A DNA stretch of 64,000 nucleotides from Burkholderia multivorans ATCC BAA-247 (GTDB lineage: Bacteria; Pseudomonadota; Gammaproteobacteria; Burkholderiales; Burkholderiaceae): positions 486,290 through 550,289 of the forward strand of contig NZ_CP009830.1 of NCBI RefSeq assembly GCF_000959525.1. Reading direction: 5' to 3'. The notes under the pieces are model-generated. The model saw nothing but the letters and a program-made list of their open reading frames with translations. It ran no database searches and was not told the DNA's origin. Below are positions 23,294 through 35,193 of the stretch, piece by piece; positions within the stretch are counted from its first letter, which is position 1; each line of letters begins with the position of its first letter. A program made the position numbers and the translations under genes.

Positions 23294-23308
23294 GCAAGGA
23301 GCGTGCCG
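23294..23308 (-). promoter_or_regulatory. Sigma-54 (-24/-12) promoter of pqqABCDE
   Basis: On the minus strand GGCACG-CTCC-TTGC, with exactly 10 bp between the GG and GC dinucleotides, matches the consensus TGGCACG-N4-TTGCW at all but the first base. Expected start is near 23283, giving a leader of about 58 nt before pqqA. Confidence 0.8.
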
Positions 23309-23445
23309 GGCGGGCGTATCGCCTGTGCGACGACGTGCGGATGCCGCCGCGCGGTCGTTGCGGCGACAACCTTACGAATCACCCACAAAACGGTTTCAAT
23401 TGCCGTCGGCGCAGGCGGCGGGCGGCAGGCGTCCGGCTGCGCGAC

Positions 23446-23483
23446 TGTTGAATCCTTGAACACCGGTGTTGCAAGCTGACACA
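23446..23483. promoter_or_regulatory. Two tandem upstream activator sites for the pqq promoter
   Basis: TGTTG-N7-GAACA (23446-23462) and TGTTG-N7-ACACA (23467-23483) have centres 21 bp apart, two helical turns, about 140-190 bp upstream of the -24/-12 element. Both keep TGT-N11-ACA. The same motif lies before the alcohol dehydrogenase and acs. It also includes the palindrome AACACCGGTGTT (23459-23470). Confidence 0.6.
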
Positions 23484-23508
23484 GCGGGTGTGACAGTGAG
23501 GCCGCCCT

Positions 23509-25509
23509 TCAGTGTTCGTCCGTGCGCAGCGGCGCGGTGCCGACGGACGGCATCTTCCGGTAGATCGTGTTGCGCGACACGCCGAGCGCGCGCGCGGCCG
23601 CCGACACGTTGCCGCCGTGCCGCGCGAGCGCCGCGGCGATCGCGCACGCCGCGACGTCCTGCAGCCGCGCATCGCCGGTCGCCAACGGATCGGGCGCGGC
23701 GTGCGGCGATGCAGCGCCGTCGTGCGCGCAGTGCGCGTCGTCGCGCCGCAGGTCGTCGAAAAAGTCTTCGGGCAAGTGCTCGCAGCGGATCTCCCCGTCG
23801 TCGTCGACCATCGCGGCGGCGGTACGCAGCAGGTTCGCGAGCTGGCGGAAATTGCCGGGCCACGCGCAGCGCTCGAACAGCGCCATCACGTCGGGCGCGA
23901 CGCTCAGCGGCCGCCGGCCGGGGCCCGACAGCGTCTCGCGCTGCAGCATCTTCTGCACGACCACCGCGAGATCGGTGCGGTCGCGCAGCGGCGGCAGCCG
24001 GACGACGAGGCCGTTCAGCCGGTAGTACAGATCCTCGCGGAAGCGGTTCTGCGCGATCATCTCGCGCAAATCGCGGTGCGTCGCGCAGATGATCGCAATG
24101 TCCACGCCGATCGCCTTCGTCGAGCCGAGCGGATTGACGATGCGCTCCTGCAGTACGCGCAGCAGCCGCACCTGCAGCGGATACGGCATGTCGCCGATCT
24201 CGTCGAGAAACAGCGTGCCGCCGTTCGCCTGCAGCAGCTTGCCGGTCGCGCCCTTGCGGCGCGCGCCCGTAAACGCGCCCTCCTCGTAGCCGAACAGCTC
24301 CGACTCGATCAGCGTCTCCGGAATCGACGCGCAGTTCACCGCGACGAACGGCCCGTCGCGACGCGGCGAGTCGTTGTGGATCGCCTGCGCGAGCAGTTCC
24401 TTGCCGGTGCCGGTCTCGCCCGTGATCAGCACCGGAATGTCCTTGCCGATCACCTTGCGCACCTTCGCGATCACGGCCGCGACCTGCGGATCGCCGGTGT
24501 CCAGATAGCTGAGCCGCGACAGGCTCGCGGCGCCGTGTGAGGCCGCGGGCCGCGCGGCCGGCACGGCGCCGCCGTCGTGCACGTCGGCCGGGCGGCTGCC
24601 CTCGGCGCGCAGCGCACGCCGGAACTGCACGCGCGCACAAACGACCGCGCCGTTGCCGAGATTGAGCATCACGTGCGGCTCGGTGCTCGCGCGCATCCGG
24701 TCGATCAGCTGCGCGCTCGTCACGTCGAACAGCGACGCCAGCGTATGCGCACGCAACGCCGACAGCGGCATGCCGAGCTGGAACTGCGCGCTGCGGTTCG
24801 CGGACAGAAAGCGGCCGTCGGCGGTGAACGCGACGATCCCTTCCATCAGCGTGCCGAGAAACTCCGGCCGGCCGTGAAACGACACCTGCAGCGTCTCCTG
24901 GAACGTCGTCGTGAACAGATGGTTCTCGATCATCTGCACCGACATCTTCGCGAGCGCCATCGTGTGCTGGTGATAGCTGCGATGGTCGCCCGTCACGTCG
25001 AGCACGCCAATCACGTCGCCGTACGGATCGAGAATCGGCACGCTCGAACAGGTCAGGAAATGGTTCGCCGCGAGAAAGTGCTGGTCGCCGTGCACGACCA
25101 TCGGACAGAGCTCGGCCAGCGCCGTGCCGATCGCGTTGGTGCCCTGCCGGTCCTCCGCCCAGTTCGCGCCGGGGCGCAGCGCGACGCGCTCCGCACGGCG
25201 CAGGAAGTCGTCGTCGCCGATCGAATGCAGGATCAGCCCTTCCGCGTCGGTCAGCACGATCATGCTCTGCGTATTGACGATCTGCTCGTGCAGCGTCTCC
25301 ATCACCGGCATCGCGTGCACGCACAGCACGCGGTTCTGCTCGCGCTTGAGCGCGAGTTCGGTGGCGGACAGCACATCGTAGTCGGGGCGTGCGGACGCCT
25401 GCAGGCCGAACGTCTCGGACCGCTGATGGGACTTCCGGATCGTGGGCGTCGGCCAGCCGGGCGCTTGCGCAGCCCGTGTATCGGCGGCCGGATGAACGTC
25501 GTCGCGCAT
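23509..25509 (-). CDS. Sigma-54-dependent activator of the AcoR family
   Basis: 666 residues from ATG 25509 (CGGAGGAG upstream). An N-terminal sensory half has a GAF-like part (about 75-205: [42 protein letters not shown], typical of AcoR) and a PAS-like part (215-300). The AAA+ domain has Walker A GETGTGKE (374-381), the sigma-54 contact loop GAFTGA (421-426), Walker [13 protein letters not shown] and the R-finger region. The Fis-type HTH is at the C-terminus ([28 protein letters not shown]). AcoR relatives respond to acetoin, ethanol or other alcohols. It lies upstream of pqqA on the same strand and most likely drives the -24/-12 promoters before pqqA, the TonB receptor, the alcohol dehydrogenase and acs. 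Confidence 0.92.
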
Positions 25510-25830
25510 TGTCTCCTCCGGGGATCCTTCCGGTCGGTTGCCGGACTCTTCTGTCCCGATACAAGCAAACATCGGGCCATCGAGGCGATCGCGGCGCGAT
25601 GTCGTGACGCGTGCGGACCGTACCGGCGATTCGAAAGGTCATTGAAAGACGATCAACGGTTGTCGCGGTCGCACAGGCCGTGATGAGCACATGATGCGCA
25701 CGACGCGACGCTGACGAACCCCGCCATGCACGTCGCCGCGCGCGAAGCCCGCTTCGATTTGCGCATGTGTTGCCATGCCGCTCGCGCCTTGGCGCGCCGC
25801 CGCCACCCGCGTTCCTCTATCATCGCCCGC
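25510..25830. other. Divergent intergenic region, activator and iminopeptidase genes
   Basis: No ORF, strong promoter or copy of the TGTTG-N7-CAACA motif is visible, so the activator gene does not seem to belong to its own regulon. Confidence 0.45.
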
Positions 25831-33133: not shown

Positions 33134-33155
33134 TGCCGCGCGCGACGCATCGGCA

Positions 33156-34994
33156 ATGTCCAATGCACGGCAGCCGGCGCCCGCGGCCGGCCACGACGAC
33201 GCGCTCGCATCGGCGAGCGCGCCTTTCGCCGGATTGATCGCACTCGGCCTGTCGCGCGGCTTCGTGACGCGCGGCGACGTGATCGACGCGCTGCCCGACG
33301 ACGACGCGCACGATGCCGGCATCGACGCCGCGACGGCCGTCCTTGCGGAACTCGGTATCGCGGTATCGGACGCCGCCCATGCGGAAACGGACTGGTCGCT
33401 CGACCGGTATTTCCGGCCCCCACCGCTCTCCCGCGCGGCGGCCGAGCGCAACGGTGCGTTCGCGGCCTTCGATCTGCTCGCGCCGCGCACGAACGATCCG
33501 GTGCGGCTCTATCTGCGCGAGATGGGCACGGTGCCGCTCCTCACGCACGACGAGGAGATCGCATACGCGCAGCGCATCGAGCGCGGCCGCGCGGCGTCGG
33601 TCGCGGTACTGTGCGGCGATCCCGATGCGCTCGATGCGCTGGCGTCGATCCGTCGCGAGATCGCGGAAGGCCGGGCCGCTGCATCGGCCTATTTGATGTT
33701 CGTCGATGAGGGCCGGCATGCCGATGCAGCGGCCGCCGTCGACCCGCATGCCGACGCGCAACACGACGACATGCGGCCGGGCGACCCGCACGTGTGCGAC
33801 GCGGCACTCGCCCGTCTGTCGTCGCTCGATGCGCTCGCGCGCGACATGCGCGCCGCGCTGGCGTCGGGCGGCACGGCGTCGCCCGCGTACCGCGCCGCGG
33901 TGCGCGATGCCGCGGCGCTGCTGCGCCCGCTGCGGCTGTCCGCACGTGCGGTCGAGCGCATCGGCGCACCGCTGCGCGGCCGCGCACGACGTCATCGCGA
34001 ACAGCGCGCGCGTATGACGCGCGTGCTCCACCATGCGGGCATCCCGTCGCAGACGACCTGGCGATGCCACGACGCGCACGACGACGATCACGCGCGCTGG
34101 CTCGCGGCCGGCATCGCCGCGCATCCCGAATGCGAGCGCGCGCTGATTCGCAGCGCGCCCGTGCTGTTCGATGCGCGCGAAGCGATCGCAGCCGATGCAC
34201 GCGCATCGGTGCTGCCGCCGCGTACGGTCGCGCTGCTCGATGCGCGGCTCGATGCGATCGAACGCGCGACGCACGCGGCGAAGATGGCGTTGTTCGACGC
34301 GAACCTGCGGCTCGTCGTGTCGATCGCGAAGCGCTATCCCGATCGCGGGCTCCCGTTCGCCGATCTGATCCAGGAAGGCAACATCGGGCTGCTGAAGGCG
34401 ATCGACCGCTACGATCACCGACGCGGCTTCCGGTTCTCGACCTACGCGACCTGGTGGATCCGGCAGTCGATCACGCATGCGCTCGCCGATCTCGGACGCA
34501 CGATCCGCGTGCCGACGCACACCGTCGATGCAATCAACAAGCTCGCGCGACTCGCGCGCGAACATCGGCAGCGTGCGGGCGCGGCCGCGACGCCGGACGA
34601 GTTGGCCGCTCAGATGGGCGAGCCCGTCGACAAGGTGCGCGAACTGATGGCGATCGTGAAGGAACCCGTTTCGGCCGATCTGCCGATTGCACCGGACGGC
34701 GACATGACGTTCGTCGACGTCGTGCCCGATGCGTCGACGCCGTCGCCGGAAGACGCGGCCGACGCGGCGCAGCGGCGCGCTGCGATCGCCGCCGCGATCG
34801 ATCGGCTTCCGCCGCGCGAAGCGCTGATCGTGCGGCTGCGCTACGGGCTGCATGCGGGCGAAGGCTGCTCGCTGCGCGACATCGGCCGCCGTCTGAATCT
34901 GTCTGCCGAGCGCGTGCGGCAGATCGAAGCGTCCGCACTCGCACGCCTGCGCGCCTCGGGCACGCTCGCGGTGCTGCGCCCGTTCGTTGGATGA
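33156..34994 (+). CDS. RpoD-like sigma-70 family factor (extra, non-housekeeping copy)
   Basis: 612 residues from ATG 33156; the start is uncertain because no strong ribosome site is present, and ATG 33117 overlapping the HiPIP stop is possible. Near the start [24 protein letters not shown] resembles region 1.1. Then region 1.2 ([31 protein letters not shown]), a non-conserved insertion, regions 2.1-2.4 ([50 protein letters not shown]), region 3 and region 4.2 ([29 protein letters not shown]). It differs from ordinary RpoD enough to be an alternative factor. It is directly downstream of the HiPIP gene and could be in the same transcript. Confidence 0.9.
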
Positions 34995-35030
34995 TGCACG
35001 CACACGATGCGCCGACTGTGCCGCGCGTCG

Positions 35031-35047
35031 TGTTGATACCTGCAACA
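35031..35047. promoter_or_regulatory. Activator site upstream of acs
   Basis: TGTTGATACCTGCAACA is a perfect TGTTG-N7-CAACA inverted repeat, the cleanest copy of the motif in the window, about 130 bp upstream of the acs -24/-12 promoter. Confidence 0.65.
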
Positions 35048-35178
35048 GCCGCTGCTGCATTTCGGCGCACGCCGGCGGCCGCCGGCGGCGGCATCAGCGT
35101 CGACCGATCAACGCACGGCGTGCCCGCCGCCTCGCACCGGCGGCACCGGCGTGCAGGCAGCGCGCATCGTCGCGCGAC

Positions 35179-35193
35179 TGGCATGCATGTTGC
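35179..35193 (+). promoter_or_regulatory. Sigma-54 promoter of acs
   Basis: TGGCATG-CATG-TTGC with the 10-bp GG-to-GC spacing. It is identical to the alcohol dehydrogenase promoter outside the 4-bp spacer. Predicted start near 35205, about 38 nt before the acs start codon. Confidence 0.8.

Follow-up and report, generated by a model that had tools for sequence, protein, structure and literature searches.

Organization of the locus and putative sigma-54 sites

The window analyzed here is the last 64 kb of contig C1 (550,289 bp) in the 6.32 Mb genome of Burkholderia multivorans ATCC BAA-247. It contains genes for the synthesis of pyrroloquinoline quinone (PQQ), a PQQ alcohol dehydrogenase (ADH), a TonB-dependent receptor, an acetate-CoA ligase (acs) and a sigma-54 activator. 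We describe the putative sigma-54 promoters and the palindromes upstream of these genes, together with the regulon that they may define. The genes concerned are the following.

23151-23225, minus strand: pqqA, PQQ precursor peptide of 24 aa with E-x3-Y
23509-25509, minus strand: sigma-54 activator of 666 aa, with GAF, weak PAS, AAA+ (GAFTGA) and Fis helix-turn-helix (HTH) domains in this order (domain search)
26800-29100, minus strand: TonB-dependent receptor, 766 aa
29704-31431, plus strand: ADH, 575 aa, with W-D-Y-D-G at residues 316-320 (lanthanide-type)
35243-37225, plus strand: acs, acetate-CoA ligase with a TTG start, second copy in the genome (profile match)

Sigma-54 (-24/-12) promoters are characterized by GG-N10-GC, with the consensus TGGCAYG-N4-TTGC. 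A preliminary description of this DNA had claimed four such sites, before pqqA, the receptor gene, ADH and acs, as well as five TGT-N11-ACA palindromes, two at pqqA, two between receptor and ADH and one at acs. All nine elements are present at the places given there. The pattern scan revealed an additional site in front of the activator gene that was absent from the earlier list.

23294-23308, minus strand: predicted sigma-54 site of pqqA, CGGCACGCTCCTTGC (direct reading and pattern scan)
29194-29208, minus strand: predicted sigma-54 site of the receptor gene, CGGCATGCTTCTTGC (direct reading and pattern scan)
29598-29612, plus strand: predicted sigma-54 site of ADH, TGGCATGCGATTTGC (direct reading and pattern scan)
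35179-35193, plus strand: predicted sigma-54 site of acs, TGGCATGCATGTTGC (direct reading and pattern scan)
25565-25579, minus strand: sigma-54-like site of the activator gene, TGGCCCGATGTTTGC (pattern scan)
23446-23462: palindrome upstream of pqqA, TGTTGAATCCTTGAACA
23467-23483: second palindrome upstream of pqqA, TGTTGCAAGCTGACACA
29460-29476: palindrome common to receptor and ADH, TGTCATGTTTCGCAACA
29492-29508: palindrome common to receptor and ADH, TGTTCCCGAACGCAACA
35031-35047: palindrome upstream of acs, TGTTGATACCTGCAACA, a perfect TGTTG-N7-CAACA

The sites of ADH and acs fit the consensus exactly, and those of pqqA, the receptor gene and the activator gene have one mismatch each. The two pqqA palindromes are spaced by 21 bp and the two receptor/ADH palindromes by 32 bp, as had been claimed, and the distance from palindrome to sigma-54 site is 112-306 bp.

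Pairing of sigma-54 sites with palindromes

Taken singly, the two motifs are no more frequent than expected. TGGCAYGN4TTGC with up to one mismatch has five matches in the window compared to 3.0 expected; five or more were also obtained in 19 of 100 shuffles. The palindrome with up to three mismatches occurs 95 times in the window versus 100 expected, and genome-wide with up to one mismatch it was found at 33 places versus 23 for the reversed control. Counts of either motif by itself were rejected as evidence, being not above chance.

The strict sigma-54 pattern YGGCAYRN4TTGC occurs at 68 places in the genome, and the 400 bp upstream of each were checked for a TGT..ACA palindrome. A palindrome with at most two mismatches was found at six of them, namely at pqqA, the receptor gene, ADH, acs and two divergent sites on contig C3 that precede exaC and the gene divergent from it. 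Two more sites are paired at three mismatches, and 60 of the 68 have no palindrome up to this threshold. At one mismatch or fewer, four pairings were seen genome-wide compared to 0.14 expected (Poisson P ~1.5e-5); if receptor and ADH are counted once, as they share their palindromes, there are three (P ~4e-4). Pairing of a sigma-54 site with a palindrome exceeds chance. The earlier statement that four matches in 12 kb are unlikely by chance is thus wrong for each motif singly and right for the pairing. Nor is the pairing equally frequent at unrelated genes of this genome: the six pairs are the four noted before and the exaC pair.

Conservation of the sites in relatives

Regions of up to 500 bp upstream were examined at 80 loci with relatives of the activator, from Burkholderia, Paraburkholderia, Trinickia and Caballeronia, counting sigma-54 sites at up to one mismatch and palindromes at up to two. 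Genes whose match starts after residue 40, or whose upstream stretch is shorter than 300 bp, were left out. This filter kept the receptor gene at 18 of 38 loci, acs at 10 of 13, the cytochrome gene next to ADH at 68 of 69 and a hydrolase gene at 12 of 25, and it left pqqA (68), ADH (69), pqqE (44) and the activator gene (80) whole.

A sigma-54 site is present upstream of ADH in 69/69 loci (0.9 expected) and a palindrome in 64/69 (2.9 expected). For pqqA the numbers are 47/68 and 60/68, for the receptor gene 13/18 and 11/18, and for acs 7/10 and 3/10, where three of the ten acs genes are homologues of 42-74% identity without the site. Neither motif was found at the control genes of the same loci, i.e., pqqE (0/44), the cytochrome gene (0/68) and the hydrolase gene (0/12). 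The upstream region of pqqB includes that of pqqA, and pqqB was therefore unusable as a control. In these relatives the motifs are conserved at ADH, pqqA and acs and absent from the control genes. This conservation is stronger evidence than the pairing statistics.

On the far side of the ADH upstream region, a divergent sigma-54 site was detected in 46/69 loci compared to 1.65 expected. The gene divergent from ADH in those loci varies and is a receptor gene, a tonB-exbB pair, an aldehyde dehydrogenase gene or the activator gene. In particular, six relatives have the activator gene divergent from ADH, with its own sigma-54 site across shared palindromes.

Module and core copies of acs

The two acs proteins of the genome are 97% identical; one is encoded 5.5 kb from ADH and the other on C3. 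For a comparison, 46 upstream regions were obtained from 81 acs matches, and module status was assigned by position and not by promoter (on the contig of ADH, 5.5-5.7 kb from ADH start to start). The module acs genes have a sigma-54 site in 18/18 cases and a palindrome in 13/18. Core acs genes, which are 92-97% identical to the window acs, have the sigma-54 site in 0/28 and the palindrome in 1/28 cases. Core acs was rejected as a member of the regulon, since the sigma-54 site is lacking throughout. These data suggest how a duplicated core gene gained a new promoter on entering the module.

An acs match lies near ADH in 19 of 37 ADH-bearing genomes, 18 of which were used, the match in G003 being incomplete and located at the end of its contig. 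In several of the remaining ADH-bearing genomes the contig ends too early, and in some there is no acs at this place. Consequently, acs is not a module member everywhere.

The same promoter code at exaC on another replicon

The plus-strand sigma-54 site on C3 is identical in sequence to that of acs and is located 64 bp upstream of the gene of a 508-aa protein (L111). This protein scored 904.7 bits against NCBIfam NF050026 (cut-off 900), which identifies it as the acetaldehyde dehydrogenase ExaC. The minus-strand site precedes a PNPOx-like gene, whose start is inferred, and two palindromes lie between the divergent sites. ExaC supplies the step from acetaldehyde to acetate, for which there is no gene in the window. 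The best 30 exaC matches from 65 Burkholderia genomes all have the sigma-54 site (30/30), and 29/30 have the palindrome with up to three mismatches. Judged by these promoters, the predicted regulon extends to exaC on another replicon.

The activator and its paralogues

The AAA+ domain with GAFTGA and the Fis-type HTH, both of which had been claimed before, place the window activator among NtrC-class bacterial enhancer-binding proteins. Its architecture GAF-PAS-AAA+-Fis is that of the AcoR family, the PAS match being weak (E 5e-6). A search of its own genome with the activator gave 20 matches, counting the activator, and most of these are confined to the AAA+ region. One of them, a 40% identical activator on C3, lies next to an E1-beta gene and, as judged by eye, also to an E1-alpha gene, which is the arrangement of acetoin dehydrogenase; the C3 activator is therefore the likely AcoR. 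Acetoin dehydrogenase genes are not found beside the window activator, where the neighbors are PQQ, receptor and hydrolase genes. The window activator was accordingly rejected as AcoR itself and is an AcoR-family paralogue.

Orthologues of the activator (at least 84% identity) were found in 36 of 65 Burkholderia genomes, and ADH is present in 36/36 of these. Among the other 29 genomes only G057 (82% complete) has ADH. A paralogue of 51-55% identity, termed EBP2, is encoded on contig C2 in the own genome and was found in 64/65 Burkholderia genomes. There are also activators linked to exaC: eight Paraburkholderia-type loci without ADH have exaC next to the activator gene, and G014 has a 72% activator relative beside its exaC match. 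In a tree, ADH-linked and exaC-linked activators cluster, and 18 EBP2 sequences form a separate clade. One form of the recognition helix (19 residues) is the commonest, being found in 35/71 ADH-linked and 7/9 exaC-linked activators, and the other forms printed for these activators differ in one to three residues. The recognition helix of the likely AcoR is different, WRPDAAAQALGMSRATLYR.

The activator gene itself probably belongs to the regulon, as its upstream DNA suggests. A TGGCCYG-N4-TTGCTT block precedes it in 19/19 aligned upstream regions, in otherwise divergent DNA. Among the 80 relatives, a sigma-54 site with up to one mismatch was found before the activator gene in 44 (0.9 expected) and a relaxed form in 65 (0.85 expected).

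Two further observations were made at activator genes. A block resembling CTTGCATTTTGCTTTC lies ~35-70 bp upstream of the sigma-54-like site and is kept in most of the 19 aligned regions. In B. pseudomultivorans (L016 and L043) the activator is present twice, with 98% and 86% identity to that of the window, and G028, which has the same contig and position as L016, has two ADH copies as well.

A putative sigma-54 regulon for alcohol oxidation

What the data show directly are the sites and how they pair, the extent to which they are conserved, and the gene families. With high confidence we propose that they reflect one sigma-54 regulon for the periplasmic oxidation of ethanol-like alcohols to acetyl-CoA, which would be run by the activator at 23509-25509. 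Binding of the activator to the palindromes, its effector, looping, induction and autoactivation are what we infer, and the predicted scheme is as follows. The alcohol or its aldehyde would be sensed via the GAF domain. The activator would bind TGTT(C/G)-N7-(C/G)AACA sites about 110-310 bp upstream and loop to the sigma-54 polymerase, and the promoters would be opened. Putative targets are pqqA for PQQ synthesis, ADH with its cytochrome and perhaps a high-potential iron-sulfur protein (HiPIP), the TonB-dependent receptor and the second acs. Since exaC and the divergent PNPOx-like gene carry the same code, they may be targets as well, and at exaC the activator may act jointly with EBP2 or be replaced by it. 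The pathway would run from ethanol via acetaldehyde and acetate to acetyl-CoA, and the sigma-54-like promoter of the activator gene would probably add self-amplification. Of the one AcoR-type regulon in the preliminary description, the single regulon is supported by the relatives and by the module and core acs genes. Its activator is better described as an AcoR-family paralogue, and exaC has to be added.

A number of observations weigh against a single regulon under the local activator, some concerning the motifs and others concerning EBP2. Neither motif is significant by itself. With the thresholds applied, 21/68 pqqA upstream regions and 5/18 receptor upstream regions lack the sigma-54 site (all five of the latter have intervening tonB-exbB-like genes), and the palindrome is absent from 5/18 module acs. 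Within the window, the activator gene has its sigma-54-like site but no palindrome with up to two mismatches shortly upstream of it, so that direct autoactivation is less sure there. Moreover, the relatives are non-independent samples, and the control genes therefore weigh more than the shuffles. It is conceivable that a GC-rich genome yields look-alike -24/-12 sites of which those near related genes were picked, and the single-motif counts in the window indeed equal those of shuffles. We nevertheless find chance hardly credible, given sigma-54 sites in 69/69 cases at ADH versus 0/68 at the next gene and in 18/18 module versus 0/28 core acs, and a genome-wide pairing at P 1.5e-5 to 4e-4, according to the counting of shared palindromes. 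The promoters could also be real and be served by another activator such as NtrC, with the palindrome being the site of an unrelated protein, since sigma-54 sites by themselves do not name their activator and the genome offers 20 activator matches. This is improbable, because in the relatives palindrome and sigma-54 site co-occur at ADH, pqqA, acs and exaC, at 112-306 bp spacing, and genome-wide only these sites pair at up to two mismatches.

EBP2 deserves closer attention, as the palindromes might be read mainly by this protein, or by both proteins, and the local activator might be redundant or accessory. Besides being almost universal in the Burkholderia genomes, EBP2 has a recognition helix nearly identical to that of the local activator, with one form in 14/18 sequences. 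The exaC palindrome is kept in 9/10 examined genomes without the local activator, and some other protein must therefore be capable of reading this code in those genomes. A palindrome also lies upstream of the EBP2 gene itself in 12/17 fetched loci and in the own genome (L109:5285-5301). The EBP2 gene was rejected as a sigma-54 target, since no exact TGGCAYGN4TTGC was found in 18 loci (17 EBP2 loci and G014), which would agree with autoregulation of another kind than by sigma-54. From these data EBP2 could be the acting protein at some sites. The local activator, however, is tied to ADH in 36/36 genomes and close by in most fetched loci, and the six relatives in which it is divergent from ADH place its own sigma-54 site across the shared palindromes. 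A leading role of EBP2 is thus possible, yet we consider it rather unlikely. Shared operators, and hence cross-talk between EBP2 and the local activator, are likely, above all at exaC.

With the regulon under the local activator, we propose which regulator, operator and type of promoter govern alcohol oxidation in Burkholderia, Paraburkholderia, Caballeronia and Trinickia. If it is true, growth on ethanol of strains bearing the module would require rpoN and the activator or its paralogue.

Comparison with known systems

The exa system of Pseudomonas aeruginosa and the ped cluster of Pseudomonas putida are controlled mainly by two-component and LuxR-type regulators. The locus described here differs in having a one-component sigma-54 activator. 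In Azospirillum brasilense, exaA is a PQQ alcohol dehydrogenase gene reportedly under sigma-54, and the partner regulator there is said to be of the LuxR type. AcoR is the sigma-54 activator of acetoin catabolism, with GAF, AAA+ and Fis HTH domains. The window activator shares this architecture, for which the likely AcoR of the genome was examined by domain search. That AcoR, however, is encoded elsewhere, next to E1-type genes, has 40% identity to the window activator and carries a different recognition helix. AcoR is mentioned in the accessible text of two papers (PMC8784404; PMC8427195), and the available text on AcoR-type activators offered no operator for comparison.

In gene content, the accessible descriptions of the P. 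aeruginosa exa/pqq/acs ethanol system (PMC3480352) and the P. putida ped cluster (PMC12997753) resemble the present set, with PQQ ADH, PQQ synthesis, aldehyde dehydrogenase and acetyl-CoA synthetase. As to the regulator, there is a precedent in Ralstonia solanacearum GMI1000. According to the available part of that study, the pair RSc3129/RSc3128 comprises an AcoR-like activator and exaC as its predicted target, and rpoN1 is required for growth on ethanol (PMC4676750). Both systems have an AcoR-like sigma-54 activator with the acetaldehyde dehydrogenase ExaC as a predicted target. However, exaC is the sole target listed there, while the putative targets here also include pqqA, the PQQ ADH, the receptor, the second acs and probably the activator gene, on two replicons.

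A region described for the bug-Burkholderia symbiosis in related genera resembles the locus by gene content, as it combines PQQ genes with a PQQ ADH and a Fis-family regulator of the sigma-54 type. As far as its accessible text goes, this study covers distribution and colonization and reports the contiguous region to be absent from the cepacia/pseudomallei clade; a promoter or regulon analysis, as presented here, was not seen in it (PMC9088363). In the available text of a Paraburkholderia phymatum rpoN study, no mention of pqq, alcohol dehydrogenase, AcoR, acetyl-CoA synthetase or TonB was found, and its table of changed genes contains an aldehyde dehydrogenase, Bphy_1284 (PMC5979394). Searches of open-licence PMC papers gave, in the text accessible, no report of the whole regulon, its operator or the promoter capture by acs. 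We regard the system as genuine and as an enlarged version of a regulon type already known, with binding, effector and induction as predicted above.

PQQ genes, alcohol dehydrogenase, receptor and neighboring genes

The remaining genes referred to above, and one further neighbor, are listed here.

20028-21197, minus strand: pqqE (TIGR02109, above cut-off)
22166-23089, minus strand: pqqB (TIGR02108, above cut-off)
31502-32740, plus strand: solute-binding domain (weakly MoxJ-like) fused to cytochrome c
32762-33133, plus strand: HiPIP (PF01355), directly behind the ADH and cytochrome genes
33153-34994 (start inferred): RpoD-like sigma-70 factor, between the HiPIP gene and acs

The start, the stop and E-x3-Y of pqqA are present in 68/68 orthologues. 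In the accessible text of the symbiosis study, pqqA of Burkholderia is called a fragment (PMC9088363); from its sequence it may simply be a very short gene.

The best match of ADH among solved structures is PedH (PDB 6zcw) with 416 bits, followed by ExaA with 351. In the sequence alignment ADH has D-Y-D where ExaA has D-x-S, and W-D-Y-D-G is found in 69/69 ADH orthologues, which corresponds to the D-x-D of the lanthanide type (PedH/ExaF/XoxF), with an additional Asp two residues past the catalytic one. ADH thus keeps, like PedH, an aspartate that was linked to lanthanide binding in PedH, according to the available part of that work (PMC5487730). At E <= 1e-10 the search of the genome gave this PQQ ADH and no second one, unlike in P. 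putida, where PedH is described in the accessible literature as one of a calcium/lanthanide pair. The HiPIP is a possible electron acceptor.

The receptor was rejected as the PQQ importer PqqU, since it scored 110.7 bits against NF041535 (cut-off 1200). Among solved structures, PhuR (E 1.2e-8) is the single sequence match of the receptor at E <= 0.001. At five loci (L017, L019, L021, L022 and L023), tonB- and exbB-like genes lie between ADH and the receptor gene, behind the divergent sigma-54 site; the pair at 4159-5905 of L017 was confirmed by Pfam. A role of the receptor in lanthanide uptake is a guess that the context allows, and iron or another ligand is equally possible. It is tempting, though doubtful, to read the whole as a lanthanide regulon, in which the sole PQQ ADH found would be a lanthanide enzyme and the activator would couple metal import to alcohol sensing. 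If so, the receptor would be a dedicated TonB-driven lanthanide importer, with its own tonB-exbB in some species, and one enhancer code on two replicons would cover enzyme, cofactor, import, exaC, acetate activation and the activator. Lanthanide use by these bacteria can be tested on the basis of this locus.

The best stretches of the RpoD-like factor, which are often partial, are 51-71% identical in Burkholderia relatives. This is below the value for ADH, and the factor therefore seems to be fast-evolving.

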